Positions 1-18,265 of a stretch of 64,000 bases of DNA are shown here, one piece after another. The DNA is from Armatimonadota bacterium (GTDB lineage Bacteria > Sysuimicrobiota > Sysuimicrobiia > Sysuimicrobiales > Humicultoraceae), in assembly GCA_031081585.1 (NCBI GenBank), contig JAVHLY010000015.1:1-64000 (forward strand), written 5' to 3'. The notes under the pieces are model-generated. The model searched no databases. It was not told where the DNA came from and saw nothing but the letters and a program-made list of their open reading frames with translations. The number at the start of each line of letters is the position of its first letter. Position 1 is the first letter of the stretch. A program made the translations under genes and the position numbers.

Positions 1-1
1 G

Positions 2-1497: not shown

Positions 1498-1517
1498 ACG
1501 GGGGCGGCCATCAGGTG
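1483..1517. repeat. 14-base direct repeat across the ACT gene stop codon
   Basis: GCGGCCATCAGGTG occurs at 1483-1496 and again at 1504-1517, a period of 21 bases. The first copy holds the last codons and the first two bases of the stop of the ACT-domain gene; the second lies in the short gap before the glutaredoxin gene. It looks like a small tandem duplication of a gene end. Confidence 0.75.
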
Positions 1518-1562
1518 GACAGGTGAGGAACGGCTGACAACCGGGGAAACATTCTGGATGCG

Positions 1563-1850
1563 ATGGGGCTTGCGGTCACGATCTACCGTCAGCCGGGGTG
1601 CACCTTCTGCGACCAGGCGCGCGCCTGGCTCCAGGCGCATCAGGTCCCGTTTGCCGAGCGGGACCTGACCCAGGACCCGCTGGCCCGCAGCGAGCTGGCG
1701 CGCATGGGGGTCTTCGACGGTCCGGCGATCGTCGTGGCGGGACAGGTTTTCCTGTCCTTCGACCCCGACGCACTGAGGGCGGCCCTGAGCCAGGACGTGC
1801 GCGGCACCCCCGCGGAGCGGCGGGCGGCCCGCACCGACCAGGGGCCCTGA
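1563..1850 (+). CDS. Glutaredoxin-like protein
   Basis: A 95-residue protein with a thioredoxin fold of the glutaredoxin/NrdH type. It begins with a beta strand and the redox motif C13-T-F-C16 in 'QPGCTFCDQAR', followed by a helix, then the 'FDGPAIVV' strand with the cis-proline of the fold. It probably reduces disulfides or glutathionylated and bacillithiolated thiols in the cytoplasm. The C-terminal 20 residues are a charged tail beyond the domain. The gene stands alone on the plus strand between the ACT gene and a convergent broken STAS gene, so its reductant and target cannot be inferred from context. Confidence 0.8.
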   Translation: MGLAVTIYRQPGCTFCDQARAWLQAHQVPFAERDLTQDPLARSELARMGVFDGPAIVVAGQVFLSFDPDALRAALSQDVRGTPAERRAARTDQGP

Positions 1851-1868
1851 CGCAGCACCGTCGCCGCC

Positions 1869-2236
1869 TCACGATGCCGTGGCCGGGGGCTCGACTCCGC
1901 CCTCGCGCCGCAGTTCGGTCAGGGCCTCCGCCTGCGATGACGCGACGGGAGCGATGCGGGCGAAGCCGACCACGTCCAGCACGCGCCGGACGCCAGTAGG
2001 GGCGGCGCACACGGCGACGGGCACGCGCAGGCGCCGGCAGGTCTGGCAGAACTCCTCCAGGACGCGTACCCCTCTGGCGTCCAGGTAGTCGATCCCGCTC
2101 AGATCCAGGAGGATCGGGCGACTGCGATCCAGCCCGTCCAGGACGTGGCGGAGGAGGGGGCGCTCGTCATGTCGATCTCCCCCTCGATGACGAGGACGGT
2201 GACCTCCTCGACCTGCTCGGTCCGCCAGCGCAGCAT
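1869..2236 (-). pseudogene. STAS-domain anti-anti-sigma-like gene with a frameshift
   Basis: Reading from the ATG at 2236, the first frame gives a STAS N-terminus (residues such as 'VTVLVIEGEIDMTSAP'). The frame must then shift by one base, near the five-G run at 2156-2160, to continue as 'LLRHVLDGLDRSRPILLDL' and 'SGIDYLDARGVRVLEEF', which carry the conserved strand-D-x-S/G-x-x-x-L-D core of anti-sigma-factor antagonists. The second frame ends at 1869. One added base would give an intact protein of about 122 residues, the normal size for a SpoIIAA-like protein. It would take part in partner switching with an anti-sigma factor kinase. Either the gene is inactivated or one base was lost from the homopolymer in sequencing. 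No kinase or phosphatase partner lies nearby. Confidence 0.75.
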
Positions 2237-2328
2237 CTGCCTGTTCCGGGGAACACGGTCATTGTGCGCCGCACGCTCTCCCCCGTCCTAGCCCGGAGAA
2301 CCGGCTACCTTCCTCGAGCGACGGCGAC

Positions 2329-2437
2329 CGGCCACGGGCGCGGGGCTCGGCCACCGGCGCGGTCCAGCCACCGGCACGGGGCCGGCCACTGGCTGGCGCG
2401 GCCCGGCCACGAGCGCGGGCTCGGTCACGGGCGCGAC
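2329..2437. repeat. Degenerate tandem repeat, about 18-20 bases per unit
   Basis: About six imperfect copies of a CGGCCACSGGCGCGG-like unit stand in the gap between the broken STAS gene and the Na/Pi-like gene. The copies vary in length by a few bases, so no protein frame is kept. The rest of the 2237-2592 gap shows no gene. Confidence 0.6.
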
Positions 2438-2592
2438 GAGGGGAAAGCCTCACCGGGGACGGAGACACGGTGGCGCTCGAGCACGAGCTCCATCACGACG
2501 TCGCAGCGGTCTTCCGCACGTGTGGCTGCGAGGACGTGCGGACGGTTGGACCGGTAGCGCGCCGCCGGAGTCCCAGCGGCCGCGGGGGCCGG

Positions 2593-3528
2593 CTAGAGCA
2601 GCAGCAGCGCCAGCGGGACCAGGGCGAGGGTCGCCACGAAGAGGGAGAAGCGCAGCCGGCTCGTCGTCACCCGTTTGTTGAAGGCCAGCAGCGCGTCCCG
2701 GTAGGGACGGAACCCCAGCACCAGGACCGCCAGCGAGACCAGCGCCACCGAGACCATCTCCGTCAGGACGATGGTGAAGGCCACCGGCGTGCGGACAAGC
2801 AGCGAGGCGAAGGGCGTGTCCACGAAGGTGGAGATGTTCGCGCCCATGATGTAGGGGATGACGTGCCCACGCCTGATGTACCCTCGGGCGGCGAGCGGGA
2901 CGAGCAGGGAGAGGGAGACCGAGACGGAAAGGGTCACCGAGGTCACCAGCAGGCCGAGCGCAAAGGTGGTGAAGGGGCGGGCGAGCCACCGGCCCCACCG
3001 CTGCTCGACGATGTCGCTACGGACCTCGGGGAGCACGCGGTCGAACAGGCGAAAGGCTCCCAGCATCGTGGCGAACCCCAGGGCGAAGACCGCCAGGCCG
3101 GGCAGCTGGGCACGGGCTGAGGCGGTGAGCGGGTCGAAGAGGAGGTCGATCACGGAGGCGAGGAGGACCGGCGAGCCGAAGCGCACGCCGTCCAGCCATC
3201 CCGCCCGCAGGGCGAGGGCTCCCAGCGCCATCGCCGGCAGGTAGATCGTGGCCGTCGTGACCATGGAGATCACCCACCCGAAGCCCAGGACGTTGGCCAC
3301 GCCGTGGACGGACAGCCCCTGGAGGATACCGGTCAGGCCGCGGGCCCCGGTCTTCAGCAGCTCGATCGCCAGGATGAAGAGGAAGAAGGCCCCGGCGCCG
3401 AGCAGCAGGCCCGTCAGCCGGCGGAGGGTGCCGGTCGGCGCCGCCGGGACCTCGACCGGGGGACAGGTGAGGGGGCGGACCGCCAGGCGGGCGCGCCGGA
3501 CGGCGCTGGCACGGGCCGGCAGGTGCAT
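2593..3528 (-). CDS. Na+/Pi-cotransporter-like membrane protein, possibly internally shortened
   Basis: A 311-residue integral membrane protein with about seven to eight hydrophobic segments. The stretch 'YIMGANISTFVDTPFAS' (about residues 228-244) resembles the G-A-N-I/T core repeat of sodium:phosphate symporters (PF02690). The N-terminal third ('FLFILAIELLKTGARGL') also fits that family. The family normally has two inverted core repeats. Here the segment between 'LGFGWVISMV' and 'TTATIYLPAM' seems too short to hold the first one, so I suspect an internal deletion of some tens of residues; that is from memory of the family, not an alignment. It would move phosphate or another anion across the inner membrane if functional. 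It stands alone. Confidence 0.55.
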   Translation of the reverse strand: MHLPARASAVRRARLAVRPLTCPPVEVPAAPTGTLRRLTGLLLGAGAFFLFILAIELLKTGARGLTGILQGLSVHGVANVLGFGWVISMVTTATIYLPAMALGALALRAGWLDGVRFGSPVLLASVIDLLFDPLTASARAQLPGLAVFALGFATMLGAFRLFDRVLPEVRSDIVEQRWGRWLARPFTTFALGLLVTSVTLSVSVSLSLLVPLAARGYIRRGHVIPYIMGANISTFVDTPFASLLVRTPVAFTIVLTEMVSVALVSLAVLVLGFRPYRDALLAFNKRVTTSRLRFSLFVATLALVPLALLLL

Positions 3529-3747
3529 ACGTCGGGTAGCGTAGCGGCGCGGCAGGGAGGCTCCCCCTCACCCGTCCGGCCGATCTTGCTCCTCCCGCCA
3601 GGCAGGGTTCACCTGGCAGCGTAGGACTCGCCGGGCGCCGCCCGGGAGGCATCGGCTCGATCGCGACCACGCGGGCGGGGAGCGGCCCGCCCAGCCGCCT
3701 CGGACGACGACAGGGAGCGGGGCGGTGTCTGACGAACACACCACCGC

Positions 3748-4044
3748 ATGATCGTCGTGCGCACCTGGTTCCGCACCAAGTGGGGCGCGGCCAGCACCGT
3801 CGTCGAGCTCCTCAAGGGTCTCTCCGTGACGATGGCCGACGAGCGGCGTGCCCGCATCTACACCGACCTCTCCGGGGAGCTCTTCACCGTGACCTGGGAG
3901 ACCGAGTGGCCGAGCCTCGCCGCCTATGAGGAGGCCTTCGAGGCGCTGCGCCAGCAGGAGGAGTACCGCGACCTGATGGTGGAGATCGCGGACCTGGTCG
4001 AGGTGGGGGGCCGGGACTTCCTCCTGCGCCGGTGGCCCGAGTAG
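3748..4044 (+). CDS. Small alpha/beta-barrel-type protein of unknown function
   Basis: A 98-residue protein. The pattern of a first strand ('IVVRTWFRTKWG'), a helix ('STVVELLKGL'), then 'ELFTVTWETEWPSLAAYEEAFEAL' followed by a charged helix resembles small dimeric ferredoxin-like barrel proteins (NIPSNAP / antibiotic-biosynthesis monooxygenase type). These range from stress proteins to cofactor-free oxygenases. No catalytic residue is evident. The gene is followed after 22 bases by the metallopeptidase gene and may be co-transcribed with it and the MBL hydrolase. I do not know its function. Confidence 0.6.
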   Translation: MIVVRTWFRTKWGAASTVVELLKGLSVTMADERRARIYTDLSGELFTVTWETEWPSLAAYEEAFEALRQQEEYRDLMVEIADLVEVGGRDFLLRRWPE

Positions 4045-4066
4045 GTCGCGGCCCCGGTGGGTCCGC

Positions 4067-4447
4067 ATGGGGCTCCGGTTGAGCCGGCGGCGCTTCGAGC
4101 AGCTCGTCCTGGAGGCCCTGGAGAGCATCCCGCTCCCTCTGCGGCAGCGGATGGAGAACGTGGCGGTCGTGGTGGAGGCCTGGCCCACGCCCGAGCAGCT
4201 GGCCAGCGTGGGGCTGGGGCCGGACGACCTCCTGTTCGGCCTGTACGAGGGGACGCCGCTCGTGGAGCGGGGCGTGCTGGCCGAGCCGCTGCTGCCCGAC
4301 CGGATCACCATCTTCCAGGGGCCGCTGGAGGAGGCCTGCGACACGGAGGAGGAGATCCGCGAGGAGGTCCGCACGACCATCATCCACGAGGTCGCCCACC
4401 ACTTCGGCTTCGACGAGGAACGGCTCGCCGAGCTCGGGTACGAGTAG
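4067..4447 (+). CDS. Minimal zincin metallopeptidase family protein (DUF1025 type)
   Basis: A 126-residue protein of the PF06262 family, a small protease-like fold. The zinc site H107-E-V-A-H111 followed by 'HFGFDEERL' matches the HExxHxxGxxD pattern of the family. The N-terminal 'RRRFEQLVLEALESIPLPLRQ' is also typical. Family members are near this length, so the gene is complete. The biological substrate of the family is not established. The 3' end around 4432-4467 shows a weak 20-base tandem similarity across its stop codon. The gene lies between two short plus-strand genes and 30 bases before the MBL hydrolase. Confidence 0.85.
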   Translation: MGLRLSRRRFEQLVLEALESIPLPLRQRMENVAVVVEAWPTPEQLASVGLGPDDLLFGLYEGTPLVERGVLAEPLLPDRITIFQGPLEEACDTEEEIREEVRTTIIHEVAHHFGFDEERLAELGYE

Positions 4448-4477
4448 CCGGGCTCGGGGACGGGTGAGGGAGGCGGC

Positions 4478-5245
4478 GTGCTCGTCAAGGTCCTGCGCAG
4501 CGGCAGCGGCGGGAATGCCTGCTACGTCGAGCTGGGCGGCACCCGCCTCCTGGTGGACGCCGGCGTGCCGCTCGAGGTCGTCGCGCGCGAGCTGGCCCCG
4601 CTGCACATCACCCCGGCGGACCTGGACGCGGTGCTGCTGACCCACGAGCACGACGACCACGCCCGGGGCGCGGGCGCCGTGGCCCGCCTAGCCGCCGCCC
4701 CCGTGCTGGCCACCGCAGCGACGTTGCAGGCGGCGGCGCGCTTCCTCACCGGCGATCTGGGCGAGCCGATCCAGGCCGGTGGCGCCCTGCGCGTGGGCGC
4801 GTTGACGGTGGAGGCCTTCCCGGTCCCGCACGATGCCGCCGACCCGGTGGGGTTCCGGCTGACCGGGCCTGACGGCGTGGTGGTGATCGCCGTGGACCTG
4901 GGCGCGCCCACCGGGGCGCTGCGCGAGCGCGTGGCCGACGCGGACGTCCTGGTGCTGGAGGCCAACTACGACCTGCGCCTGCTGGGCGTGAGCGGCTACC
5001 CCTGGTTCCTGAAGAACCGCATCATCGCCCCCACGGGACACCTCTCCAACGAAGGCGCCGCCCTGGCGGCTTCCTGGGCGCCGCGCGCCCGTGCCGTCGT
5101 GCTCACCCACCTGAGCGAGGTGAACAACCTGGCCCCGCTGGCGCGTGACGTCGTCCTCGAGGCCCGGAGGCGCGAGGGGCTGCCGGCCGCGCGCGTCGAG
5201 GCGGTCCGCCCCAACGCCGCCGGCCCGCCGATCGCCCTGGCCTGA
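4478..5245 (+). CDS. MBL-fold metallohydrolase of the YycJ/WalJ type
   Basis: A 255-residue cytoplasmic metallo-beta-lactamase-fold protein. The N-terminal 'VKVLRSGSGGNACYVELG' and the metal motif T-H56-E-H58-D-D60-H61 are characteristic, as are 'GHLSNEGAA' and 'LTHLSEVNN' near the C-terminus, the signature that sets the YycJ family apart from other MBL hydrolases. In Firmicutes YycJ has been linked to DNA repair and exonuclease activity and to the WalK/WalR locus; no walKR genes are present here. Translation starts at GTG 4478 after a GGGAGGCGG ribosome site. The enzyme class is secure, the substrate inferred only from the family. Confidence 0.85.
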   Translation: MLVKVLRSGSGGNACYVELGGTRLLVDAGVPLEVVARELAPLHITPADLDAVLLTHEHDDHARGAGAVARLAAAPVLATAATLQAAARFLTGDLGEPIQAGGALRVGALTVEAFPVPHDAADPVGFRLTGPDGVVVIAVDLGAPTGALRERVADADVLVLEANYDLRLLGVSGYPWFLKNRIIAPTGHLSNEGAALAASWAPRARAVVLTHLSEVNNLAPLARDVVLEARRREGLPAARVEAVRPNAAGPPIALA

Positions 5246-5296
5246 GGGTCCCCCCGGCATCGTGCCGTCCCGCACCGGACCTGCGCTCCGGGGATC

Positions 5297-5363
5297 GGCG
5301 GGAACTGAGAGCGGGGTCGACGGTGGGAACTGAGAGGACGGCGGGAACCGAGAGGGGGTCGAC
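5297..5363. repeat. Tandem repeat before the glycerate kinase gene
   Basis: Three imperfect copies of GGCGGGAACTGAGAG..GGTCGAC lie at 5297-5321, 5322-5339 (shortened) and 5340-5363. The purine-rich part of the last copy serves as the probable ribosome site for the next gene. An in-frame GTG at 5323 lies inside the repeat and is unlikely to be the real start. Confidence 0.75.
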
Positions 5364-5367
5364 GGCG

Positions 5368-6804
5368 GTGGCTGATCGGCGGCAGATGCGCGCCCTCCCG
5401 CACACTTTCTTCCAGGGCCGCCAGACGGCCGGACTGCGCCGGGACGCCGTCGCGGTGCTCTGGGCCGCCCTCGACGCCGCCGACGCCGGCGGTGCGGTGC
5501 GGCGGGCGCTCGTGCGGGAAGGAGGCCGCCTCGACGCCGCCGGCGAGGTCCTCGACCTCGACGCGGTGCGGCACGTCTGGGTCACCGGCGGCGGCAAGGC
5601 GGCGGCGGCGATGGCCGCGGCCGTCGAGGAGGTCCTGGAGGACCGGCTCAGCGGCGGCGTCGTGGCCGTGAAGTACGGCCACGTCGTCCCCACCCGCCGG
5701 GTGCGCGTCCTGGAGGCCGGACACCCTCACCCTGATGCCGCCGGCGTCGCCGCGGGGGAAGCGGTGATCCGCCTGGCGCGGCAGGCGGATGCCGACGACC
5801 TGGTCCTGGTGCTCCTCTCCGGCGGCGGGTCGGCCCTGCTGACCGCACCCGCCCCCGGCGTCACGCTGGAGGACAAGCGGGAGGTCACCGACCTCCTCCT
5901 GCGGGCCGGCGCGCCGATCGGCGAGCTCAACGCCGTCCGCAAGCACCTCTCCCGCCTGAAAGGCGGCTGGCTGGCCCGGCACCTCGCCCCGGCGCGGTCG
6001 GTGACGCTCGCCCTCTCCGACGTGCTCGGCAACCCGCTGGACGTGATCGCCTCGGGCCCGACCGTCCCCGACCCCACCACCTTCGCCGATGCCCTCGAGG
6101 TCCTCTCCCGACGGGGCGTGCTCCAGCGCGTGCCCCTCGGGGCGCGCGCCTACCTGGAGAGCGGCCGGGCGGGACGCCACCCCGAGACGCCCAAGCCCGG
6201 CGACCCCGTCTTCGCCCTGGCGCGGGCCGCCGTCGTCGCGGACCTCCGGCGGGCGGTCGAGGCCGCCGCCAGACGGGCCGGCGAGCTCGGCTATCTCACC
6301 TCGGTCCTCTCGGTCACCGTCGAGGGGGAGGCCCGGGAGGCCGGGCGCGCCTTCGGGCGGCTCCTGCGCGCCGTGCGCGAGGGACGTGCGCCTCCAGGTG
6401 ATCGGGAGGGTGGCCGGTGGGAAAGGAGAGAGGGGCGGCCGGTCTGCCTGCTCCAGGGCGGGGAGACCACCGTCACGGTGCGCGGGCCCGGCCGGGGCGG
6501 GCGGAACCAGGAGTTCGCGCTGGGTGCCGCCCTGGAGCTCGACGGCCTCCCCGGCGTGCTCGTGCTGGCCGCGGGGACCGACGGCACCGACGGTCCCACC
6601 GACGCCGCGGGCGCGGTGGCCGACGGCACGACCCTGGCCCGCGCGCGGGCCCGCGGGCTCGACCCGCTGGCCGCCCTGGAGCGGAACGACGCTTATCCCT
6701 TCTTCGAGGCGCTGGGGGACCTGGTCGTCACCGGACCGACGCTCACCAACGTGAACGACCTGATGGTGGGGCTGGTGGAGCCGGTCGACATTGACGATAG
6801 GTAA
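5368..6804 (+). CDS. Glycerate 2-kinase, MOFRL family
   Basis: A 478-residue enzyme that phosphorylates D-glycerate with ATP to 2-phosphoglycerate, the exit step of glyoxylate/tartronate-semialdehyde routes. Family marks are 'GGGKAAAAMA' near the N-terminus, 'VLLSGGGSALL', 'NAVRKHLSRLKGG', 'LSDVLGNPLDVIASGPT', and in the MOFRL C-terminal domain 'RGGRNQEFALG' and 'GTDGTDGPTDAAGA'. I chose GTG 5368, eight bases after GAGAGGGGG; ATG 5386 is also possible. A stretch of about 15 residues near 345-360 ('PPGDREGGRWERRE') looks inserted between conserved blocks. Its relevance grows with the glycolate oxidase and malate synthase genes 30 kb away, which also handle glyoxylate. GlgA follows 24 bases downstream. 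Confidence 0.9.
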   Translation: MADRRQMRALPHTFFQGRQTAGLRRDAVAVLWAALDAADAGGAVRRALVREGGRLDAAGEVLDLDAVRHVWVTGGGKAAAAMAAAVEEVLEDRLSGGVVAVKYGHVVPTRRVRVLEAGHPHPDAAGVAAGEAVIRLARQADADDLVLVLLSGGGSALLTAPAPGVTLEDKREVTDLLLRAGAPIGELNAVRKHLSRLKGGWLARHLAPARSVTLALSDVLGNPLDVIASGPTVPDPTTFADALEVLSRRGVLQRVPLGARAYLESGRAGRHPETPKPGDPVFALARAAVVADLRRAVEAAARRAGELGYLTSVLSVTVEGEAREAGRAFGRLLRAVREGRAPPGDREGGRWERREGRPVCLLQGGETTVTVRGPGRGGRNQEFALGAALELDGLPGVLVLAAGTDGTDGPTDAAGAVADGTTLARARARGLDPLAALERNDAYPFFEALGDLVVTGPTLTNVNDLMVGLVEPVDIDDR

Positions 6805-8331: not shown

Positions 8332-10467
8332 TTGAGCGACTGGACGCCCTCTACGACCACGCCCGTCCGCCCGCGGCGGCTGCCGGCCGGCCTCTCCGGC
8401 CTGTGGGACCTGGCGTACAACCTGTGGTGGGCGTGGCATCCGGAGGCTTCCCGCCTCTTCGCGCAGCTCGATCCCGAGTGCTGGGCGCGCTCGCGCCACA
8501 ACCCGGTGGCGGTGCTCCGCGAGGTGGAGGAGGAGCGCCTCCGGGCGGCGGCAGAGGACCCCGCCTTCCAGGCGGCCTGCACCGAGGTCCTGGCGGCGTT
8601 CCAGGCGGCGGTGCGCCCGCCCGCCGTGTCTGCCGGCGACGGCGCGCGCGCGCCCGGTGTCGTCGCCTACGCGTCCGCGGAGTTCGCCCTGGCGCCCTGT
8701 CTGCCCACCTACGCCGGGGGGTTGGGCGTGCTGGCCGGCGACGTGCTCAAGTCCGCCAGCGACCTGGGCCTCCCGGTGGTCGGCGTCACCCTCCTCTACC
8801 GCGAGGGGTACTTCCGGCAGGTCCTCGACGCGGCAGGCCGCCAGCACGAGGCCTACGATCCCGTCGATCCCGGGACGCTGCCGCTGGAGCCCGTCCGCGG
8901 GGCCGACGGGGGGTCCGTCATCGTCACCGTGCCCTTCCCCGGCCGCGAGGTGGCGTTGCAGATCTGGCAGGCGCGGGTGGGGCGGGCCACCCTGCTCCTG
9001 CTCGACGCCGCGCTCCCCCAGAACACGCCCGAGGACCGGCGGATCGCCGCCCGCCTCTACGACGGAGACCAGGAGACCCGTCTCCAGCAGGAGCTGCTGC
9101 TCGGGGTGGGCGGCCACCGCGCCCTGGCCGCGCTGGGCGTCAGGGCGGAGGTCTTCCACCTGAACGAAGGGCACTCCGCCCTGCTCGTCCTGGAGCGGCT
9201 GCGGGCGTGGCGCGAGGTGGGCCTGCCCTTCGAGGAGGCCTGCCGCCGCTCCGCCGCTTCCGTGGTCTTCACCACGCACACGCCGGTGCCCGCCGGCCAC
9301 GACCTCTTCCCGCCCGACCTGGCGCACCGCTACCTGGGGCCGCTGGCCGTCGCGGCGGGGGTGGAGCCGGACGCCCTGGTGGCCCTGGGCCGCGTCGACC
9401 CCGCCGACCCCCGCGAGCCCTTCTCGATGACCGCCCTGGCCATGCGCTGCTCGGCCCGCCGCACGGCGGTGAGCCCGCTGCACGAGGCCGTCACGCGGCG
9501 CATGTGGCGTCGGCTCTGGCCCGAGGTGGGGGAGGCGGAGGTGCCCATCGGGCACGTGACGAACGGCGTCCACCTCGCCTCCTGGGTCGGCCCGGCGATG
9601 GCGCGCCTCTTCGACGCCCACCTGGGGGCGGCGTGGCGCCACCGTCCGCACGACCCCGAGGTGTGGCGGCCGCTGGCGGCGGTGCCCGACGAGGCGCTGT
9701 GGGAGGCCCGGGCCGCACAGCGCCGCGCGCTCGTCGACCTGGTGAACGCCCGTCTGGCCCGCGGCGAGGGCGCCGTCGCCCTACGCCCCCTCGACCCCGA
9801 GACCTTCACGATCGGCTTCGCCCGCCGCTTCGCCACCTACAAGCGCGCCACGCTGCTCCTGCGCGACCCCGAGCGGCTGGCGCGGCTCCTGGGCGACCCC
9901 GCGCGGCCTGTTCAGGTCGTCTTCGCCGGCAAGGCCCACCCGCGCCATGAGGAAGGGAAGGCGCTGGTCCAGGAGGTCGTGGCGCGCGCGCGGGACGAGC
10001 GCTTCCGGGGCCGGGTGGTCTTCCTGGAGGAGTACGACCTGGCCCTGGCCGCGGCGCTGGTGCAGGGCGCCGACCTGTGGCTCAACACGCCGCGGCGTCC
10101 CGAGGAGGCCAGCGGGACCAGCGGCATGAAGGCCGTGGCGAACGGCGCCCTCCACCTGAGCACCCTGGACGGGTGGTGGGAGGAGGCGGTGCGGCTCGTC
10201 CCCGAGGACGCCATCGGCTGGGCCCTGCCGGTCACGGACGGCCTGGGGGTCGAGGAGCAGGACGCGCGCGACGCCGACGCGTTGCTGCGCCTGCTGGAGC
10301 AGGAGGTGGTGCCGCTCTTCTACGACCGCGACGGGGCGCTGCCGCGCCGCTGGCTCGCCCGGGTCAAGACCGCGATCCGCCGGCTCTGCCCGCGCTACAA
10401 CACCCACCGGGTGCTGGAGGAGTACGTGGGCCAGCTCTATGCGCCCGCCGTCCGAGGACGAGCGTGA
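8332..10467 (+). CDS. glgP: Alpha-glucan phosphorylase (GT35)
   Basis: A 711-residue PLP enzyme releasing glucose-1-phosphate from the non-reducing ends of alpha-1,4-glucan. It belongs to the shorter bacterial/archaeal phosphorylase group, recognisable by the N-terminal 'LWDLAYNLWWAWHPEA' and 'LPTYAGGLGVLAGD'. Further conserved blocks are 'HLNEGHSALL', 'TTHTPVPAGHD', 'IGFARRFATYKRA' and 'EEASGTSGMKAVANG', where the lysine carries PLP. The start is TTG 8332, after a GAGAGCGAGG site. It shares the plus strand with glgA and may be one transcript with glycerate kinase and glgA. The next gene converges on it, with 65 bases between stops and no strong terminator. Confidence 0.93.
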   Translation: MSDWTPSTTTPVRPRRLPAGLSGLWDLAYNLWWAWHPEASRLFAQLDPECWARSRHNPVAVLREVEEERLRAAAEDPAFQAACTEVLAAFQAAVRPPAVSAGDGARAPGVVAYASAEFALAPCLPTYAGGLGVLAGDVLKSASDLGLPVVGVTLLYREGYFRQVLDAAGRQHEAYDPVDPGTLPLEPVRGADGGSVIVTVPFPGREVALQIWQARVGRATLLLLDAALPQNTPEDRRIAARLYDGDQETRLQQELLLGVGGHRALAALGVRAEVFHLNEGHSALLVLERLRAWREVGLPFEEACRRSAASVVFTTHTPVPAGHDLFPPDLAHRYLGPLAVAAGVEPDALVALGRVDPADPREPFSMTALAMRCSARRTAVSPLHEAVTRRMWRRLWPEVGEAEVPIGHVTNGVHLASWVGPAMARLFDAHLGAAWRHRPHDPEVWRPLAAVPDEALWEARAAQRRALVDLVNARLARGEGAVALRPLDPETFTIGFARRFATYKRATLLLRDPERLARLLGDPARPVQVVFAGKAHPRHEEGKALVQEVVARARDERFRGRVVFLEEYDLALAAALVQGADLWLNTPRRPEEASGTSGMKAVANGALHLSTLDGWWEEAVRLVPEDAIGWALPVTDGLGVEEQDARDADALLRLLEQEVVPLFYDRDGALPRRWLARVKTAIRRLCPRYNTHRVLEEYVGQLYAPAVRGRA

Positions 10468-10532: not shown

Positions 10533-11768
10533 TCAGCCGGCACGGCGACCCTGCCGCTCTTCCTCGGCCAGGATCAGCGTGAGCGCTGCATAGGCGAGGG
10601 CCGCATCGTATAACTCGGCGGTCGGGACATGCTCGTCGTCCGCGTGGGCCACCGCCAGGTCTCCTGGGCCGCAGACGATGGTCGGCGTCCCGGCAGCCTG
10701 GAGGAGGGCTGCATCCGTGAAGGCGGGGAGGACGGCGAGGTCCGGTTGGACGCCCCGGACTTCGCCGAGAGCGGCTAGTGCAGCTCCCACGAGAGGGTGA
10801 TTGCGGGGGAGGTCGAGCGGTGGATGCGGGATGCGCTCGAACTCGGGCTCGCGGGCCACCTCCGCCCATCCACACCCGATGGTCTCCTGGATGACGCGCT
10901 CCAGGTCGGCCCGGATGGACTCCGGCGCGTCCCCGGGTAGCCACCGCTTTTCCACCTGAAACACGCACCGGTCGGGGACGGCGTTCCGGCTGATCCCTCC
11001 CTGAATCGTCCCAATGTTCAGGGTGGCCGTCCCGAGCAGGGGGTGGCGCTGTGCGGCCCAGGCATCCCGCAGGCGTTCCTCGATGGCCACAATGACTCGG
11101 GCGGCCTGCACGATGGCGTTCACCCCTCGCTCGGGGGTGCTACCGTGGGCCGCCCGTCCCCGAACCGTTACCCGATAGCGATCGACCCCCTTGTGGGCGG
11201 TGACCACGTGGAGCCGCGTCGGCTCCCCTACGACCGCCGCCCGCGCAGGCGGCCCGGCGCGCACGAGAGCCGCCGTCCCGAGGTTCCCCGTTTCCTCCGC
11301 GGCGACCGCCGTCAGGACCACGGGGCTCAGGGGGCGGAAGCCGGACCGCCGGAGGGCGACCAGTGCGCAGGTCATGGCCGCCAGGCCGCCTTTCATGTCG
11401 GCGGCACCCCGGCCCCACAGGCGTCCGTCCTCGACGACGGCGGCAAAGGGGGGTCGGGTCATCTGGGCCGAGGGAGGTACGGTGTCCATGTGGCCGTTGA
11501 GCAGCAAGAGAGCGGGACCCTCGGCTTCGCCCGGCAACACCGCCAGCAGGTTACGTCGCCCCTGGCCGATTGGCTGCTCTCGGACGGTCAGACCGGCCGC
11601 CTGGCACACGTCCTCGAGGATGCCCGCGATCGACGCCTCCCACCCGGTCTCGGGGCCCCAGCTCGGGGAGGCCACCAGGCGGGCGGCCAGGCGCTCCACC
11701 TCCGCGGGGTCCAGCCGGCCACGGACGTCGTCGAGGTGCAATGTGCCGTAGGCGGCCCTCAGGCTCAT
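10533..11768 (-). CDS. M20 family metallopeptidase (ArgE/DapE/carboxypeptidase type)
   Basis: A 411-residue zinc hydrolase that removes an acyl or amino-acid group from an amide. Metal and catalytic residues are visible: H93-M-D95 in 'LLNGHMDTVP', D124 in 'GRGAADMKGG', E158-E159 in 'AVAAEETGN', plus a later zinc ligand region near 'HADDEHVP'. The dimerisation domain sits around residues 190-290. The start ATG 11768 overlaps the upstream MBL stop by four bases (ATGA), so it is translationally coupled and the last gene of the eight-gene operon starting at the GntR gene. It probably hydrolyses the compound imported by the operon's ABC system, but the substrate is unknown. Confidence 0.88.
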   Translation of the reverse strand: MSLRAAYGTLHLDDVRGRLDPAEVERLAARLVASPSWGPETGWEASIAGILEDVCQAAGLTVREQPIGQGRRNLLAVLPGEAEGPALLLLNGHMDTVPPSAQMTRPPFAAVVEDGRLWGRGAADMKGGLAAMTCALVALRRSGFRPLSPVVLTAVAAEETGNLGTAALVRAGPPARAAVVGEPTRLHVVTAHKGVDRYRVTVRGRAAHGSTPERGVNAIVQAARVIVAIEERLRDAWAAQRHPLLGTATLNIGTIQGGISRNAVPDRCVFQVEKRWLPGDAPESIRADLERVIQETIGCGWAEVAREPEFERIPHPPLDLPRNHPLVGAALAALGEVRGVQPDLAVLPAFTDAALLQAAGTPTIVCGPGDLAVAHADDEHVPTAELYDAALAYAALTLILAEEERQGRRAG

Positions 11769-12538
11769 CTTCGGTAGACCTCCGGGATGACCTTGGGACA
11801 TAAGGCGGCGAAATTCGGCGGCACGGCCAGCTCGCGGAGCGCGGCCACCGCCCGGTCCAGGTGCTCCTGGCCGCAGCGGAGCACGAAGATCCCGTGCCCG
11901 GGCAGCAGGACGTCGACGCCGAGCCCCGCCAGCTTTCCAATGTCGCGTCGGTAGGCGTCGAGACTGCACCCCGGGGTGTTCTGGAGGAGCAGGCTCCCAC
12001 CGTAGAGCACCGCGTCGCCGGAGAAGAGGACGCGCCGCCCGTCCAGGTCTGTCAGGTAGCAGGTGTGGTGGGGCGTGTGGCCCGCCACCTCCAGCGCCTG
12101 CAACCGCACGTCCCCGAAGTCCAGCGTCTCCCCATCGCCCACGCCTCGGTCCACCGTGACGGTGGGGAACACGTAGTCGGACGGGTAGAGGCCGGCACGT
12201 TTCGCCTGCTCGAGGACGGCACTCTGGTCGACGATGCCCTCAACGACCGCGCGCTCCCCGGCGGGCGCCACCAGCCGGCAGCCGGTCCGGTCTTTCCACC
12301 CGCGGGCACCGCCAGCATGGTCGGCGTGGGCGTGGGTAAGGACGACAGTGTGGATCGCCGACGGGTCGAACCCATCGCGCCGCAAGTTGGCCGCGATGAG
12401 CTCCGGTTCCAGGCCGCACCCGGCGTCGACCAGCACCGTCCCTGCGGCTGTTTCGACCGCATAGACACTACAGTCGTACGGGTTGCTGAGACCAAAACGG
12501 CTGCTCCCCACAAGGGCGATCCGGTCGAGGATGCGCAT
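11765..12538 (-). CDS. MBL-fold metallohydrolase
   Basis: A 257-residue metallo-beta-lactamase-fold hydrolase with the motif T-H69-A-H71-A-D73-H74 and later metal ligands in 'GHTPHHT' and 'LPGHG'. It has the general layout of the glyoxalase II/MBL superfamily with no extra domain. I chose ATG 12538, eleven bases past the stop of the previous gene, with GAGGA upstream; an earlier in-frame ATG at 12598 would overlap the oxidase gene by about 50 bases. It overlaps the M20 gene by four bases. In this operon it may cut an ester, thioester or lactone in the imported compound; that role is inferred from position only. Confidence 0.85.
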   Translation of the reverse strand: MRILDRIALVGSSRFGLSNPYDCSVYAVETAAGTVLVDAGCGLEPELIAANLRRDGFDPSAIHTVVLTHAHADHAGGARGWKDRTGCRLVAPAGERAVVEGIVDQSAVLEQAKRAGLYPSDYVFPTVTVDRGVGDGETLDFGDVRLQALEVAGHTPHHTCYLTDLDGRRVLFSGDAVLYGGSLLLQNTPGCSLDAYRRDIGKLAGLGVDVLLPGHGIFVLRCGQEHLDRAVAALRELAVPPNFAALCPKVIPEVYRR

Positions 12539-12549
12539 GTCCCTGTCCT

Positions 12550-13047
12550 CTACGCCCGGTACCGCCGGGCCCACTCGGTCCCGGTCCAGGTCCGCCATCG
12601 CCGGGGCACGATCCGGATCAGGTAGCGGGGACGTCCCATGGTGCGTTCGGCGTACTCGAGCCCACGCTCCCCCATGTAGCGGCGCGCCAACTGCATGGCC
12701 ACTGCGCGCAGGCGGGGATGGTCCCGGGGCGCCACGGGGCCCTCGACGACCTCGGCCGTTCCTTCCACCAGGACGCGGGTGTGCTCGAGGTGGGCGTCGT
12801 CGGCGATGTGCACGGCCACGGCCGGGTGGTGTCGGATGTGCTCGACGTAAGCGGCACGTGCCCGGGCCACCACGTAGAACACCCGTTCGGCCGGATCGAA
12901 CTGATACCAGACCGGCACGACGTAGGGGGTTCCCTGGGGGGTGATGGTGGCCAGACGGGCATTCCAGGGCTCCGCCAAGAAAGCGTCGAGTTCCCTCCGG
13001 CTCAACCCCCCGACCTTGGCCGGCGATACGACCTGTTTGGGCTTCAC
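12550..13047 (-). CDS. Pyridoxamine 5'-phosphate oxidase family (split-barrel flavin) protein
   Basis: A 165-residue split-barrel protein of the PNPOx-like superfamily. It starts with a helix and 'WNARLATITPQGTPYVVPVWYQF', the usual first strands, followed by 'HPAVAVHIAD' and a C-terminal 'RYLIRIVPRRWRTW'. Members bind FMN or F420 and reduce diverse substrates. This one has the short domain without the extra PdxH dimerisation region, so vitamin B6 synthesis is unlikely. It overlaps the stop of the oxidoreductase gene by four bases (ATGA at 13044-13047). In this catabolic operon it is probably a redox step on the imported substrate, or a detoxification protein. Confidence 0.8.
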   Translation of the reverse strand: MKPKQVVSPAKVGGLSRRELDAFLAEPWNARLATITPQGTPYVVPVWYQFDPAERVFYVVARARAAYVEHIRHHPAVAVHIADDAHLEHTRVLVEGTAEVVEGPVAPRDHPRLRAVAMQLARRYMGERGLEYAERTMGRPRYLIRIVPRRWRTWTGTEWARRYRA

Positions 13048-14078
13048 CGCCCCTCCTCGACCTCAGTCAGGCTCCCCGTCTCGGCGGCGGCGACCAGCGC
13101 GGCAGCGACGGCCACCGCGTGCACGTGCTCGTCGAGGGCCGCGGTGCTCGGGGCATGACGTCCTGCCACGCAGGCCGTAAAGTGTTCCAGCTCGGCGCGG
13201 AGGGCGCCGTCGATCCGACCACCGACGGCAGGGACGACCAACGTATCCGGCGCATACGCCCCCTCGTCCGTCCACAGCTCCAGGCCGGCGCCCTCGTCGA
13301 CCCGCCCCAGGCCTCCGCTCCCCACCACCTCCAGGAGTCCGCGCCGGGTGCCGGGCCGCTCGGGCGGAAGCATGGTGCTCGGAAACGCGGCGGGCACGAG
13401 GAAGTGCGTCTCGACGCTGGCCGTTGCGCCCGAGCGCAGCCAGAGCAATGCCGCCAGGGCGGCGGGGCGACCCTCTTCCGGGAGCGGGTGGGCCGCAGCC
13501 GCCACGCGGACGACGCGGGAGCGGGTCAGCCACAGCACCTGGTCGATGTCGTGGATGGCAGCCCGATAGGCCAGGTGGACCGATGTCCGCGTGAGCCACT
13601 CACGGCTGATCCAGCGGATCGCGCGGACGTGGAGCACTGCGCCGAGTCGCCCCGCGTGGACGGCTCCGGCCAGCTGGCGGTGCGGCACGCTGAAGCGGAG
13701 GACGGTCCCCACGTGGACCACCCGGCCTGTCCGGCGGGCCGCCTCCCGCACCGCCCGGGCTTCCAGCAACGAGGGCGCCAGCGGTTTCTCGACCAGGACG
13801 TCCCACCCGCGCTCCATGGCCGCCACCGCCTGCGCGGCGTGCTCCGTCTCGGGGGTGGCCAGGACCACGGCGTCCACTTCCGCCCGCTCCAGCGTCTCCG
13901 CGAACGAGGCGAAGAGCGGCACGTCAGGGAAAGCGACGGCGGCGGCGTGGCGCCGCGCCTCGTCGGGCTCGCACAGGGCAGCGAGGCGCGCGCCAGGGAG
14001 GTCGCGCAATGCCGCTGCATGGAGGCGACCAAAGTGGCCCACCCCCACCACGCCCACGCGCACCACCTCCTCCTTCAT
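13044..14078 (-). CDS. Gfo/Idh/MocA family NAD(P)-dependent oxidoreductase
   Basis: A 344-residue two-domain dehydrogenase. The N-terminal Rossmann fold has 'VGVVGVGHFGRLHAAAL', an NAD(P)-binding glycine motif, and 'VLVEKPLAPS' carries the E-K-P motif of the family. The second, alpha/beta domain begins near residue 125. Family members oxidise sugars, inositols, opines or amino-acid derivatives at a hydroxyl or imino carbon. It lies between the permease genes and the hydrolases of the operon, overlapping both neighbours by four bases, which ties it to breakdown of the imported solute. The exact substrate cannot be read from the sequence. Confidence 0.88.
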   Translation of the reverse strand: MKEEVVRVGVVGVGHFGRLHAAALRDLPGARLAALCEPDEARRHAAAVAFPDVPLFASFAETLERAEVDAVVLATPETEHAAQAVAAMERGWDVLVEKPLAPSLLEARAVREAARRTGRVVHVGTVLRFSVPHRQLAGAVHAGRLGAVLHVRAIRWISREWLTRTSVHLAYRAAIHDIDQVLWLTRSRVVRVAAAAHPLPEEGRPAALAALLWLRSGATASVETHFLVPAAFPSTMLPPERPGTRRGLLEVVGSGGLGRVDEGAGLELWTDEGAYAPDTLVVPAVGGRIDGALRAELEHFTACVAGRHAPSTAALDEHVHAVAVAAALVAAAETGSLTEVEEGR

Positions 14079-14965
14079 GGGCGGAGCCGCGGGTCGAGGT
14101 AGTCACGCAGGGCGTCTCCCACGAGGTTCAGCGCCAGCACCGACAGCATGATGAAGAGCCCGGGGAAGAGCGAGATCCATGGGGAGATCGGCAGGAACTC
14201 CTTTCCCTCGTTGAGGATGGTGCCCCAGGACGGCGTGGGGGGCTGGACGCCCACACCAAGGTAGCTGAGCGCCGACTCGATGAGGATGGCATAGGAGAGG
14301 GAGACGGCCACTTGCACGATCATGGGGGAGAGCACGTTCCGCAGGATGTGGCGCCGCATGATGAGCAGCGGCCCGGCGCCCATCGCCATCGCCGCTTCGA
14401 CGTAGGCGAGGCGTTTCTCCGCGAGCACGCTCGCCCGCATCACCCGGAAGAACAGGGGGGTGTAGACAACGGCGATGGCGATGATGACGGTCGTCGCCCC
14501 GGCCCCGAGGACCGCCGAGATCCCCAGCGCCAGCAGCACCGACGGGAATGCGAAGAAGATGTCCATGACGCGTCCCAAGACCAGGTCGGTGAGGCGCTCC
14601 CAGAATCCGGCCAGGAGCCCGAGGAGGCCGCCGACGAGGGCGGCGATGGTGATAGCGGCGCACGCGATCCCCAGCGAAACCCGAGCGCCGAAAATCACAC
14701 GACTCAGCAGATCGCGCCCGAAGCGGTCCGTCCCGAAGGGGTGCGCGCGAGAAGGCGCCTGGAACATGCGCTCGGCGTCGATGGCGGTGGGGCCGTAGGG
14801 GGCAAACACCGGGGCCAGGAGCGCCACGACCGCCAGCGCGGCGAGCAGGGTCAGGCCAACAGCGAAGAGCGTGTTCCGCCCAAGGTGGCTTGCCCAACGG
14901 GTCAGCGGGCGGGCAGCCACCGCCAGCGCGGGCGAGGGCGGAATGGCGCGGATGGCGCGGGCCAT
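14075..14965 (-). CDS. ABC transporter permease, DppC type
   Basis: A 296-residue inner-membrane permease subunit of the peptide/opine/nickel importer class. Typical pieces are 'HPFGTDRFGRDLLSRVIFGARVSL' (shown by its first residues), 'YVEAAMAMGAG', the EAA-loop region after it that contacts the ATPase, and the C-terminal 'YLGVGVQPPTPSWGTIL' and 'NLVGDALRDYLDPRLR'. About six membrane segments are predicted by eye. The start ATG 14965 shares one base with the stop of the DppB gene. A 9-base tandem repeat (14943-14960) encodes a doubled Arg-Ala-Ile at its N-terminus. It pairs with the DppB-type protein just upstream. Confidence 0.92.
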   Translation of the reverse strand: MARAIRAIPPSPALAVAARPLTRWASHLGRNTLFAVGLTLLAALAVVALLAPVFAPYGPTAIDAERMFQAPSRAHPFGTDRFGRDLLSRVIFGARVSLGIACAAITIAALVGGLLGLLAGFWERLTDLVLGRVMDIFFAFPSVLLALGISAVLGAGATTVIIAIAVVYTPLFFRVMRASVLAEKRLAYVEAAMAMGAGPLLIMRRHILRNVLSPMIVQVAVSLSYAILIESALSYLGVGVQPPTPSWGTILNEGKEFLPISPWISLFPGLFIMLSVLALNLVGDALRDYLDPRLRP

Positions 14966-15879
14966 CACTGGTACTGGATCCGCGGGTCGATGACCGCGTA
15001 GAGGAGATCGACGGTGAAGTTGAGCAGCATGAAGAGCGCTGCGCCCACGAGGATCGTGCCCTGCACGACAGGGTAGTCCCGCTGGAAGATGGCGTCCAGC
15101 AGGAGGCGGCCGACCCCGGGGAGGCTGAAGACGTCCTCGACCACGACAATGCCACCCAGGATGTATCCCATCTGGACTCCAGCCACGGTGATGATGGGGA
15201 TGAGCGCGTTGCGCAAAGCGTGGCGGAGCAGCACGCGCTGAGGCCCAAGGCCCTTCGCCCGAGCGGTGCGGACGTAGTCCTGTCCCAGCACGTCGAGCAT
15301 CGCCGATCGCGTCATTCGGCTGATCATGGCGGCCGTGGCCGTCCCCAGCGTGAGCGCGGGGAGCGCCATGATGCTGAGGTTGCCCAGGGGATCCTGGGTG
15401 AACGGGATCCACTGCAGCGACGGCATCCACTGCAGGTAGACCGAGAAGAGCAGGATGAGCAGCGTTCCCTGCCAGAAGGCGGGTACGGAGAGGCCTAGGG
15501 TCGAGACGATCCGCACGAAGCCGTCCGCTGAGCCCCGTCGGACGGCGCCCACGATCCCGAGCGGGATCCCGATGATCAACGACCAGGCGACGCTCAGGAC
15601 GGCCAACTCCGCCGAGACTGGCAGCCGGGAGAGGATCAGCGCGGCCACAGGCCGATCGCTCCGCCACGAGTGACCGAGGTCTCCGCGAAGCAGTCCCCAC
15701 GCCCATTCGCCGAACTGCACGTACCAGGGGCGGTCAAGCCCGAAGAACACACGGAGGCTGCGGAGCGTCTCCTCGGTGATCAGCGCACTCTGCCCCAGGA
15801 GCTGCTCGACCACCGTGCCGGGGATCAGCCGCATCAGCCCGAAGACGATGAGGCTGACCCCCAGCAGCGTGGCCAGCAT
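14965..15879 (-). CDS. ABC transporter permease, DppB type
   Basis: A permease subunit of 304 residues from ATG 15879, homologous to DppB/OppB. It has the N-terminal segment 'GVSLIVFGLMRLIPG', the periplasmic 'LGLDRPW'-like region, 'DYVRTARAKGLGPQRVLLRHALRNALIP' (EAA loop, begun here in part) and the C-terminal 'LYAVIDPRIQY'. In-frame codons upstream of this ATG read L-R-A-Y-V-L-R-R-L-L-A, exactly the usual start of this family, but offer no ATG, GTG or TTG before a stop, only a CTG at 15912. Either translation starts at CTG or the protein has a shortened N-terminus. It follows the binding-protein gene by about 40 bases. Confidence 0.9.
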   Translation of the reverse strand: MLATLLGVSLIVFGLMRLIPGTVVEQLLGQSALITEETLRSLRVFFGLDRPWYVQFGEWAWGLLRGDLGHSWRSDRPVAALILSRLPVSAELAVLSVAWSLIIGIPLGIVGAVRRGSADGFVRIVSTLGLSVPAFWQGTLLILLFSVYLQWMPSLQWIPFTQDPLGNLSIMALPALTLGTATAAMISRMTRSAMLDVLGQDYVRTARAKGLGPQRVLLRHALRNALIPIITVAGVQMGYILGGIVVVEDVFSLPGVGRLLLDAIFQRDYPVVQGTILVGAALFMLLNFTVDLLYAVIDPRIQYQ

Positions 15880-15919
15880 CGCCAGGAGTCGCCGGAGAAC
15901 GTACGCCCGCAGCGCCTAC

Positions 15920-17524
15920 CTACTCCTCGATCCAGACGAACCGCAGCCCGTACAGGAAGCCCGTCGGGTACGGACGAAATCCTTGAATTTTTCGGTTCAA
16001 GCTGTACAGCAGATGAGGGGCGTAGAGCGGAACGCTGATGGGGTCATCCGCCAGCATCGTCTGCACCCGGTCGTAGATGGCCTTCCGGCGGTTCCGGTCG
16101 AGGGTACGACGTCCCTCATCCAGCAGTCGGTCCACCTCGGGGTTCCCCCAGCGCCGGAAGTCCACCCCCTGCGGGGGCTGTCGGTAGTGGCGGTAGAAGG
16201 CCTGGTCGGGATCCACGAACCCGCCCCACTCGTTCACCGTCGACGGGGATTGGCGGGCGATCCAGTCCTTGATCCAGACGCCGATGTCGACCGTCTCCAC
16301 CTTGACCTCGAAGCCAGCCTCTCTGAGGTTGTCGGCGATGACCTGGATGGAGGCGGCGAGGGAGGGGAAGCCGACGATGTTCCGGATCGTCAGCGGCACG
16401 GGCGGCCGCAGCCCCGCGCGCTGCAGCAGCTCCCGCGCCCGGGCGACGTCGCGCTTCTGGTTGGGGAGGCGATCCACCGGCATGGCCCAGAAGGTCATGG
16501 CGGGTGGGAGGACGCCCAGCCGCTGCCCCAGCCCGTTGCCCGCGATGCGCAGGACGGCGTCCCGGTCGATGGCCAGCGCCACCGCGCGCCGCACGTCGGG
16601 GTTCTTCGTCGGCTCCATGTCTCCCGCCAGGTCGAGGACCACCCACCGGATCCCGGGTGCCTGGATGTTGTTCAACGCCCGCAAGTGCCGGACGAGCTGG
16701 AAGTTGGCGCCACTCTCGAACTGCACCATGTCGATCTGGCCGGCGCGGAGTCCGGCCACCAGCGAGGACTCGTCCGGGATCGCCTGAAACGTGATGCCAT
16801 CGAGGTAGGGCCTCCCGCGGTCCCAGTAGTCGTCGAACCGCCGCAGGACGAGACGTCGATTGGGCTCGAACCCCTCGACCCGGAATGGGCCGGTCCCGAC
16901 GGCCGCCTGCTGGAGTTCCCGGCCAGTGCGAACGGCGTCCTTAGGGATGACCGCGTTGTACTTCCCGGCCAGGTTGATGAGAAACGTCGCGTTCGGCTCG
17001 TGGAGGGTGAAGCGGAGGGTGTAGCGGTCGACCACGTCGATGGACCGGATCATGATCAGATCCCCACGCCCGCCCGAGCCGGTCTTCGGGTCGAGGACCC
17101 GTTCGTAGCTGTACTTCACATCCTCGGCGTCCATCTCCTTGCCGTTATGGAACTTGACCCCGCGCCGGAGATGGAAGATGTACTCCGTTGGGGAGCGCTC
17201 CTCCCAGCGTTCGGCCAGCATGGGCCGGGGGACCAAGTCGAAGTCCACCCAGGTGAGCGTCTCGTAGAAGAGCGGCTTACGCCGCTGGTAGATGTCGGCC
17301 CCCTCCAGGTGGGGCTCGATGCTGGCCGGGAGGGCCGCGCTCCCGAAGGTGATCTGCCCCCCCCGGCGCGGCGTGGCCCCGGGAGCCGCCGCCGCCGTCC
17401 AGAGGTGCCGCGGGACCCCGAGTCCGGTGACCGCAAGCCCTACCCCGACGCCTCCCGCGGCCTTCAGGAACTCCCGCCGGGTCACCCCCATCCGGTCACG
17501 TGCGTAGCTGTCGTCGCTACCCAT
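15920..17524 (-). CDS. ABC transporter substrate-binding protein, family 5
   Basis: A 534-residue exported binding protein for a peptide, opine or similar organic solute. The N-terminus has a twin-arginine signal (T-R-R-E-F-L-K followed by a hydrophobic stretch), so it is exported folded. The family 5 hallmarks are 'RRGVKFHNGKEMDAEDVKYSYERV' (in part), 'VGTGPFRVEGFEPNRRLVL' and 'DRDAVLRIAGNGLG'. It overlaps the GntR gene end by eight bases and precedes the two permease genes. The importer has no ATPase gene in the window, so it must borrow DppD/DppF-type subunits encoded elsewhere. Confidence 0.93.
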   Translation of the reverse strand: MGSDDSYARDRMGVTRREFLKAAGGVGVGLAVTGLGVPRHLWTAAAAPGATPRRGGQITFGSAALPASIEPHLEGADIYQRRKPLFYETLTWVDFDLVPRPMLAERWEERSPTEYIFHLRRGVKFHNGKEMDAEDVKYSYERVLDPKTGSGGRGDLIMIRSIDVVDRYTLRFTLHEPNATFLINLAGKYNAVIPKDAVRTGRELQQAAVGTGPFRVEGFEPNRRLVLRRFDDYWDRGRPYLDGITFQAIPDESSLVAGLRAGQIDMVQFESGANFQLVRHLRALNNIQAPGIRWVVLDLAGDMEPTKNPDVRRAVALAIDRDAVLRIAGNGLGQRLGVLPPAMTFWAMPVDRLPNQKRDVARARELLQRAGLRPPVPLTIRNIVGFPSLAASIQVIADNLREAGFEVKVETVDIGVWIKDWIARQSPSTVNEWGGFVDPDQAFYRHYRQPPQGVDFRRWGNPEVDRLLDEGRRTLDRNRRKAIYDRVQTMLADDPISVPLYAPHLLYSLNRKIQGFRPYPTGFLYGLRFVWIEE

Positions 17525-18254
17525 CCGGTCTCCCCCCTCGTGCTCTCGCCCTCGTCCGCGTCCTGGGGCCTCTCGCCGTGAAGAAGCGGCGCATCAGGTG
17601 TTCGCGGGTCGTGCGCAGGTGGTCCCGCATGCCGGCCTCCGCCCCCTCCGGGTCGCCCTCTCGAAGGGCTGAGAGGATTCGAAGGTGCGCGGCGTACGAC
17701 TCCCGCTCGATCTCAAAGCGCTGCCTCGTCAGGGCGCGCACGAGGGCCGACTGGTTCCGGAGGATCGCGTACATCTGCTGGAGGTAGGAGTTCCCGCACG
17801 CCCGGACGACGTGGTCGTGCAGGCGCCGGCCGGCCGCCACCAGCGCAGCCCGGGCGTCGGGGGTGTCCTCGAGCCGGAGGGCCGCGAACTCCCGCGTCAG
17901 CCGGTCGAGGGCGGGGTGGTCCGGAAAGGCTGCCGCCAGGCGCGCGGCGATGGGTTCGACCGCTTCCCGGGCGTCGAAGATTTCCAGGATGTGGCGGGTC
18001 TCCAGCTGGCGGACGAAGGCACCCCGCCGCGGGTAGAGCACCACGAGCTGCTCATGGTGGAGCCGGTGGAGGATCTCGCGGATGGGCGTACGGCTGAGCC
18101 GGTAGCGCTGGGCCAGCGCGCGCTCCGCGATGGGCGCGCCGGGACGCAGCGCACCGGAGAGGATGGCCCGCTTCAGGTGCGCGTACGCGACCTCCTTCGA
18201 CCCATTCCTGCTGCTCACGGGAACGGCCGCCGCCACCTTTGATGTGTGTACCAT
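17517..18254 (-). CDS. GntR family regulator with FCD domain
   Basis: A 245-residue DNA-binding regulator. The winged helix covers about residues 20-85 ('LKRAILSGALRPGAPI', 'RYRLSRTPIREILHRL'), and the C-terminal helical FCD ligand domain follows, with metal-binding type histidines in 'RRLHDHVVRACGN' and 'HLRILSALREGD'. It heads the eight-gene operon and most likely represses it until the substrate or a breakdown product binds. A perfect 12-base palindrome overlaps the first base of the ATG at 18254, the kind of site FCD regulators bind. No ribosome site precedes this ATG; GTG 18218 is an alternative start that would leave the palindrome in the leader. Confidence 0.9.
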   Translation of the reverse strand: MVHTSKVAAAVPVSSRNGSKEVAYAHLKRAILSGALRPGAPIAERALAQRYRLSRTPIREILHRLHHEQLVVLYPRRGAFVRQLETRHILEIFDAREAVEPIAARLAAAFPDHPALDRLTREFAALRLEDTPDARAALVAAGRRLHDHVVRACGNSYLQQMYAILRNQSALVRALTRQRFEIERESYAAHLRILSALREGDPEGAEAGMRDHLRTTREHLMRRFFTARGPRTRTRARARGGRPDG

Positions 18255-18265
18255 TGGTATACCAA
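18254..18265. promoter_or_regulatory. Probable GntR/FCD operator at the operon start
   Basis: TTGGTATACCAA is a perfect inverted repeat touching the GntR start codon. FCD-subfamily regulators typically bind short palindromes with this T-x-G-T..A-C-x-A layout. Its place at the promoter/start of the regulator's own gene suggests autoregulation of the whole operon. It also stands out as an AT-rich island in GC-rich DNA. Confidence 0.7.

Follow-up and report, generated by a model that had tools for sequence, protein, structure and literature searches.

The stretch of Armatimonadota DNA analyzed here (64 kb; hereafter the window, whose positions give all coordinates) carries eight genes, all on the minus strand and running from 18254 down to 10533, that very probably form a single operon controlled by a GntR/FCD regulator. 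All eight genes named in the initial annotation are present, with their families above the Pfam cut-offs used for these calls; named families were assigned with the curated score cut-offs of NCBIfam. The first gene encodes the GntR/FCD regulator itself (17517 to 18254, 245 aa; PF00392 and PF07729). It is followed by a family-5 solute-binding protein, the receptor (15920 to 17524, 534 aa; PF00496, E=1.4e-80), which bears RREFLK, a Tat-like leader, at its N-terminus, and by two permeases, DppB (14965 to 15912; PF00528) and DppC (14075 to 14965, 296 aa; PF00528 and PF12911). Together these three proteins make up an importer of the Opp/Dpp type within the ATP-binding cassette (ABC) class. Four further genes complete the set: a Gfo/Idh/MocA dehydrogenase (13044 to 14078, 344 aa; PF01408, E=1.3e-26), below cut-off for all named NCBIfam families; a PNPOx-like flavin/F420 split-barrel protein with a GTG start (12550 to 13047, 165 aa; PF01243), which narrowly misses TIGR03618, the F420-dependent split-barrel oxidoreductases (75.6 bits against a cut-off of 79.05); a metallo-β-lactamase (MBL)-fold hydrolase (11765 to 12538, 257 aa; PF00753); and an M20 ArgE/DapE-family deacylase (10533 to 11768, 411 aa; PF01546, scored on a longer open reading frame), which reaches 245.3 bits for TIGR01910 against a cut-off of 217.6.

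These genes had been described as chained by overlaps, and this holds for five of the seven junctions (8, 1, 4, 4 and 4 bases, from gntR toward the M20 gene); the other two are short gaps, one between the receptor and DppB and one of 11 bases between the split-barrel and MBL genes. The first gap measures 7 bases if DppB starts at CTG 15912, and 40 if it starts at its first ATG, 15879. A GGAG-type ribosome site lies ∼10 bases upstream of the CTG, which we regard as the best start because the orthologue in G001, a genome of the same family and another genus, has an ATG at this very residue. The upper limit of 18265 given earlier is not the start of gntR but the far edge of a perfect palindrome, TTGGTATACCAA (18254 to 18265), which touches the regulator's ATG and ends on its first base; GntR starts at 18254. 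The palindrome has no other match in the window at up to two mismatches (0.09 expected), and its core is kept in G001, where TGGTATACCA also lies directly upstream of gntR. It is probably the operator to which the GntR/FCD regulator binds. A promoter scan revealed no sigma-70-like site, and terminator-like sites numbered 1 against 1.9 expected.

Among 43 genomes sampled from the phylum, close relatives of the dehydrogenase (E 1e-40 or better) occur in two, as do close relatives of the receptor (1e-90), and in both cases these are the window's own genome and G001. Seven of the eight genes lie in the same order in G001, with tight junctions and identities of 65% (GntR), 80% (receptor), 84% (DppB), 74% (DppC), 60% (Gfo/Idh), 75% (split barrel) and 60% (M20). 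Because this order is shared with another genus, the set is no chance grouping, and the tight junctions, shared order and kept operator core bear out the proposal of the initial annotation that importer and catabolic enzymes form one regulated operon. The exception is the MBL gene, which is absent from the G001 operon and from the rest of that genome (E 1e-30). The MBL step is therefore dispensable, and its gene an accessory member. Upstream of its operon, G001 encodes an M19 peptidase, and another receptor set also lies there.

A different assortment of enzymes is found in two Chloroflexota metagenome-assembled genomes (L035 and L036), where the receptor (50% identity), DppB, DppC and MBL (42%) are followed by an Oxidored_FMN protein and an amidohydrolase. 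An aminotransferase comes after the amidohydrolase in L035, a LarA-family gene lies upstream in both loci, and PIG-L, SIS and sugar-isomerase-like genes are also found upstream in L036; Gfo/Idh, split barrel and M20 are lacking from both. Since the enzymes differ between G001 and these loci, the core lies in the transporter, around which enzymes have been swapped. This variation by lineage, with MBL missing in one case and three other enzymes in the other, could mean that there is no joint pathway and that unrelated passenger genes were gained by chance in one lineage. We consider that very improbable: seven genes have kept their order and tight junctions at 60–84% identity, and Gfo, M20, split-barrel and MBL genes recur near each other in other phyla, as described below.

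The operon has no ATPase of its own: none in the window scores above 100 bits to the genome's DppD/DppF proteins. By profile counts, the genome (2.88 Mb) encodes 21 family-5 receptors (PF00496), 17 OppC_N permeases and only 2 oligo_HPY ATPases, although the ATPase count depends on the oligo_HPY model and on an assembly of 66 contigs that is 96.5% complete, a point against reading too much into it. The two ATPase genes adjoin each other on contig C2 and make up the genome's single DppD/DppF pair. Around the receptors of this genome, the stretches examined contained 17 DppB/DppC pairs and no additional ATPase scoring above 140 bits against the C2 pair; other Dpp-type ATPases are absent, and the cognate ATPases (2) are far fewer than the permease pairs (17). 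In one stretch of C2 (66001 to 86000), four family-5 receptors and three DppB/DppC pairs follow one another, and the DppD/DppF pair closes the row. A second receptor-DppB-DppC set in the window (51587 to 55007, minus strand) likewise has no Dpp-type ATPase genes nearby. The shortage extends across the phylum: oligo_HPY ATPases are fewer than receptors in all 28 genomes of at least 90% completeness and at most 5% contamination, and the ATPase/receptor ratio is lowest in the window genome (0.10), these ratios being upper limits with receptors scored to about 35 per genome.

A motor common to many permeases predicts that their coupling loops should be alike, and the loops fit this prediction. In the 17 own-genome DppB proteins, the coupling loop shows 64% identity vs 42% for the rest of the protein, compared with 50% vs 42% in 38 controls from loci with their own ATPases (the test proteins come from one genome, the controls from many phyla). 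Nowhere else in DppB is the excess as large as in this loop (bootstrap of the ratio difference, 0.26 to 0.43); the DppC loop, compared in the 16 of 17 proteins that passed the coverage cut, ranks second, nearly tied with the first (0.07 to 0.24). We thus think it likely that the single DppD/DppF pair drives the Dpp-type importers of this genome, the window's included, which goes further than the earlier claim that the motor must come from elsewhere. A precedent is MsmX of Bacillus subtilis, which the available part of PMC11466899 lists as a homodimeric multitask ATPase for at least six sugar importers. There too, importers encoded without an ATPase in their operons draw on a common one; MsmX, however, is a homodimer serving sugar importers, whereas here an oligopeptide-family DppD/DppF pair would serve up to 17 proposed clients. 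Shared ATPases in Staphylococcus are also treated in PMC10147376, as far as that source was available.

What the operon imports is suggested by the kinship of its receptor. In a tree built on 36 rows selected from the receptor loci, the window receptor falls into a ten-member clade (support 98/99) together with those of G001, L035, L036, two own-genome paralogues (L251 and L249) and four AnmK-adjacent loci (L037, L038, L039 and L149). AnmK (anhydro-N-acetylmuramic acid kinase) is encoded beside five of the nine other members, L249 among them. In the 80 loci found by receptor similarity, AnmK occurs at three, ranking third, fourth and fifth (probability 1.2e-4 under random ranking, calculated post hoc). 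Besides AnmK, L039 encodes NagA and MurQ above curated cut-offs. L249 (contig C1, 80001 to 98000) contains, in its positions 1 to 6480, a row of receptor, DppB, DppC, serine hydrolase, AnmK and MurQ without Dpp-type ATPases, and is probably a cell-wall sugar recycling operon. Because of this kinship and these neighbors we favor an N-acylated amino sugar or a cell-wall fragment as the imported solute, a prediction to which we would give even odds. Structure prediction of the receptor was poor (mean pLDDT 39.9).

The window operon thus shares with the AnmK/MurQ operons (L039 and L249) a supported receptor clade, DppB and DppC, and differs in having Gfo/Idh, split barrel, MBL and M20 instead of AnmK, MurQ and NagA. 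It also resembles YejBEF-YepA of Agrobacterium, an ABC importer of the peptide type that relies on a special binding protein and has cell-wall fragments as its cargo; the available portion of PMC9790009 describes YepA as confined to Alphaproteobacteria.

To place the enzymes, we compared the surroundings of MBL relatives in other genomes. In 400 Chloroflexota genomes, 40 had a relative at E 1e-40, at 42 places; the 40 places besides L035 and L036 were compared with 78 receptor-anchored control loci. M20 is found around 23 of the 40 vs 6 of the controls (Fisher p 7.5e-9), Gfo around 10 vs 1 (p 7e-5), split barrel around 5 vs 0 (p 0.004) and KDG kinase around 4 vs 0 (p 0.012), where the p values ignore near-copy genomes and the controls are unmatched. 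At 18 of the 40 places, M20 lies within 3 kb of MBL. Of 16 plasmid records with MBL matches, 14 were examined: the four best full-length matches (Haladaptatus, Planococcus, Arthrobacter and Shinella) have M20 nearby in every case and Gfo in three, while in the other ten tblastn at 1e-5 detected no M20 and, in one of them, a weak Gfo match. A Roseateles plasmid record (L158) has an annotated M20 gene ∼2 kb from MBL that tblastn missed. A single inherited MBL-M20 operon is not supported, the MBL-linked M20 proteins being spread over several M20 lineages with long branches.

Some of these clusters suggest a biochemical route. The grouping of MBL, M20 and Gfo/Idh spans archaea and bacteria (plasmids L144 of Haladaptatus, L145 of Arthrobacter and L147 of Planococcus), and KDG kinase, KDPG aldolase and RidA accompany it in both bacteria. 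The Planococcus row reads RidA, sugar kinase, KDPG aldolase, a small gene, sodium symporter, Gfo, MBL, M20 and a class-V pyridoxal phosphate (PLP) enzyme, and the Arthrobacter cluster resembles it; on the Haladaptatus plasmid a dipeptide epimerase gene accompanies MBL and M20. Another locus, L201, combines MBL, receptor, DppB/DppC, two ATPases, split barrel, M20, a D-serine-dehydratase-like PLP enzyme, KDG kinase and KDPG aldolase. The three plasmid clusters are candidates for an oxidative amino-sugar pathway, and those of Planococcus, Arthrobacter and L201 point, by analogy, to a putative conversion of acidic amino sugars to 2-keto-3-deoxygluconate (KDG). The window's own genome has two KDPG aldolase-family genes. 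The initial annotation had expected relatives to keep the enzymes linked to the transporter; G001 does so with its seven genes, but the enzymes also occur apart from this transporter, some MBL relatives being accompanied by M20 next to genes for a sodium symporter or a sugar ABC system, which in part is the outcome it had named as counting against it.

It is instructive to compare these clusters with the ong pathway for the oxidized chitin sugar GlcNAc1A (PMC9537276, PMC12017989; both available in part). Common to both is the idea that an acidic amino sugar is N-deacylated and then goes to KDG (PMC9537276), and the related clusters, that of Planococcus but not that of the window, also share RidA, KDG kinase and a symporter. 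However, the deacetylase OngB has a D-aminoacylase fold and is not an M20 protein (PMC12017989), and neither Gfo/Idh nor MBL is among the ong genes described in the available parts of the two papers. We therefore rejected ong membership: the window deacylase is an M20 protein, and the eight genes include no PLP deaminase or KDG kinase. As far as the account in PMC13041923 was available, it reports that mycobacteria use muramic acid by a route still to be identified, and it gives no matching genes.

Taken as a whole, our account is as follows. The receptor and DppB/DppC would take up an N-acylated amino sugar or a cell-wall fragment that bears amino sugars, energized by the genome's single DppD/DppF pair, which the other Dpp-type permease pairs would use in common. 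In the cell, Gfo/Idh would oxidize the sugar, the MBL hydrolase would open the lactone so formed, or a related ester, and M20 would take off the N-acyl group; the split-barrel protein is assigned no step in this route, and the MBL step would be optional, the G001 operon running without it. The regulator, judging from its conserved site, may bind TTGGTATACCAA at its own start and control the operon, with the solute or a product as the signal. We assign the whole account (operon, amino-sugar solute, shared motor and enzyme steps) a probability of roughly 0.4, and regard the order dehydrogenase, lactonase, deacylase as speculative.

Several observations weigh against this account. No AnmK, MurQ or NagA was found in the window (tblastn at 1e-6), the operon includes no sugar kinase, and none of its enzymes is of a known type for N-acetylmuramic acid or N-acetylglucosamine. 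Gfo/Idh and MBL match named families only far under the curated cut-offs. A subclass B3 β-lactamase assignment for MBL was rejected (NF033105, 102.1 bits against a cut-off of 240); the nearest solved folds of its model (pLDDT 84) are B3 enzymes (BJP-1, Z 23.4, rmsd 3.9, 222 aligned). Many of the 23 M20-linked Chloroflexota stretches belong to genomes that are nearly identical, and their context has no amino-sugar genes; in one stretch of the largest M20 group (L209) the MBL-M20 pair occurs with dihydrolipoyl dehydrogenase and aspartate dehydrogenase genes; the pair is therefore not limited to sugars. Three other MBL relatives in the phylum (G019, G020 and G027) have no M20 in the stretches examined, one of which is 3.2 kb long, and the M20 tree separates the window protein from those of the Arthrobacter and L201 clusters. 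To these must be added the lack of MBL in G001 and the surroundings of L251, which adjoins IclR, aconitase-family and M20 genes, not AnmK.

The initial annotation had proposed an opine or N-acyl amino acid as the solute, with the receptor importing it, Gfo/Idh oxidizing it and M20 cleaving the amide. Known ArgE/DapE deacylases act on N-acyl amino acids, and the window M20 scores above the cut-off of that family. Moreover, second place among the solved relatives of the window receptor goes to AgaA, a receptor of the opine type (E=1.3e-42), a further point against an amino-sugar cargo, and AccA is also among the solved relatives (AgaA and AccA being opine or agrocinopine receptors). But the same list includes dipeptide, nickel and heme receptors, AnmK accompanies five of the nine further receptors in the clade, and the MBL hydrolase has no obvious role on an opine; we thus do not favor this solute and consider it the less likely one, though the kinship with AgaA keeps it in play. 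Uptake and trimming of short peptides or muropeptide stems, with M20 as a peptidase and an unusual end group as the target of the other enzymes, seems no more probable to us. It would suit a Dpp-type transporter, the M20 gene that also adjoins the own-genome receptor L246, the M19 peptidase and receptor genes upstream in G001 and the dipeptide epimerase of the Haladaptatus cluster, but a sugar-type Gfo/Idh dehydrogenase and a split-barrel protein would be superfluous for peptides, and M20 scores as an ArgE/DapE deacylase, not as a dipeptidase.

The flanks of the operon add a hint of their own to the amino-sugar account. Downstream lies a convergent phosphorylase gene (8332 to 10467). Upstream, a gap of 145 bases separates the operon from lactate-oxidation genes on the same strand: an apparently fused LUD/Fer4 protein of the LutB-LutC type (18400 to about 20500, minus strand) and a CCG protein of the LutA type (20538 to about 21300, minus strand). 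N-acetylmuramic acid breakdown would free lactate. The G001 locus has no Lut genes, and for this reason the lactate link remains a mere hint.

Our literature search found no description of this gene set, nor of a DppD/DppF pair shared on this scale. That one such motor serves some 17 importers and, at the same time, that the operon processes cell-wall amino sugars oxidatively, by a route not yet described and beside the genome's own phosphorylating AnmK/MurQ route, is a long shot. If the motor is shared, ATPase-less permease operons in this phylum would not be broken, and one gene pair would gate a whole set of uptake systems. If the amino-sugar account is true, the enzyme set would contribute an oxidative means of exploiting N-acylated amino sugars.

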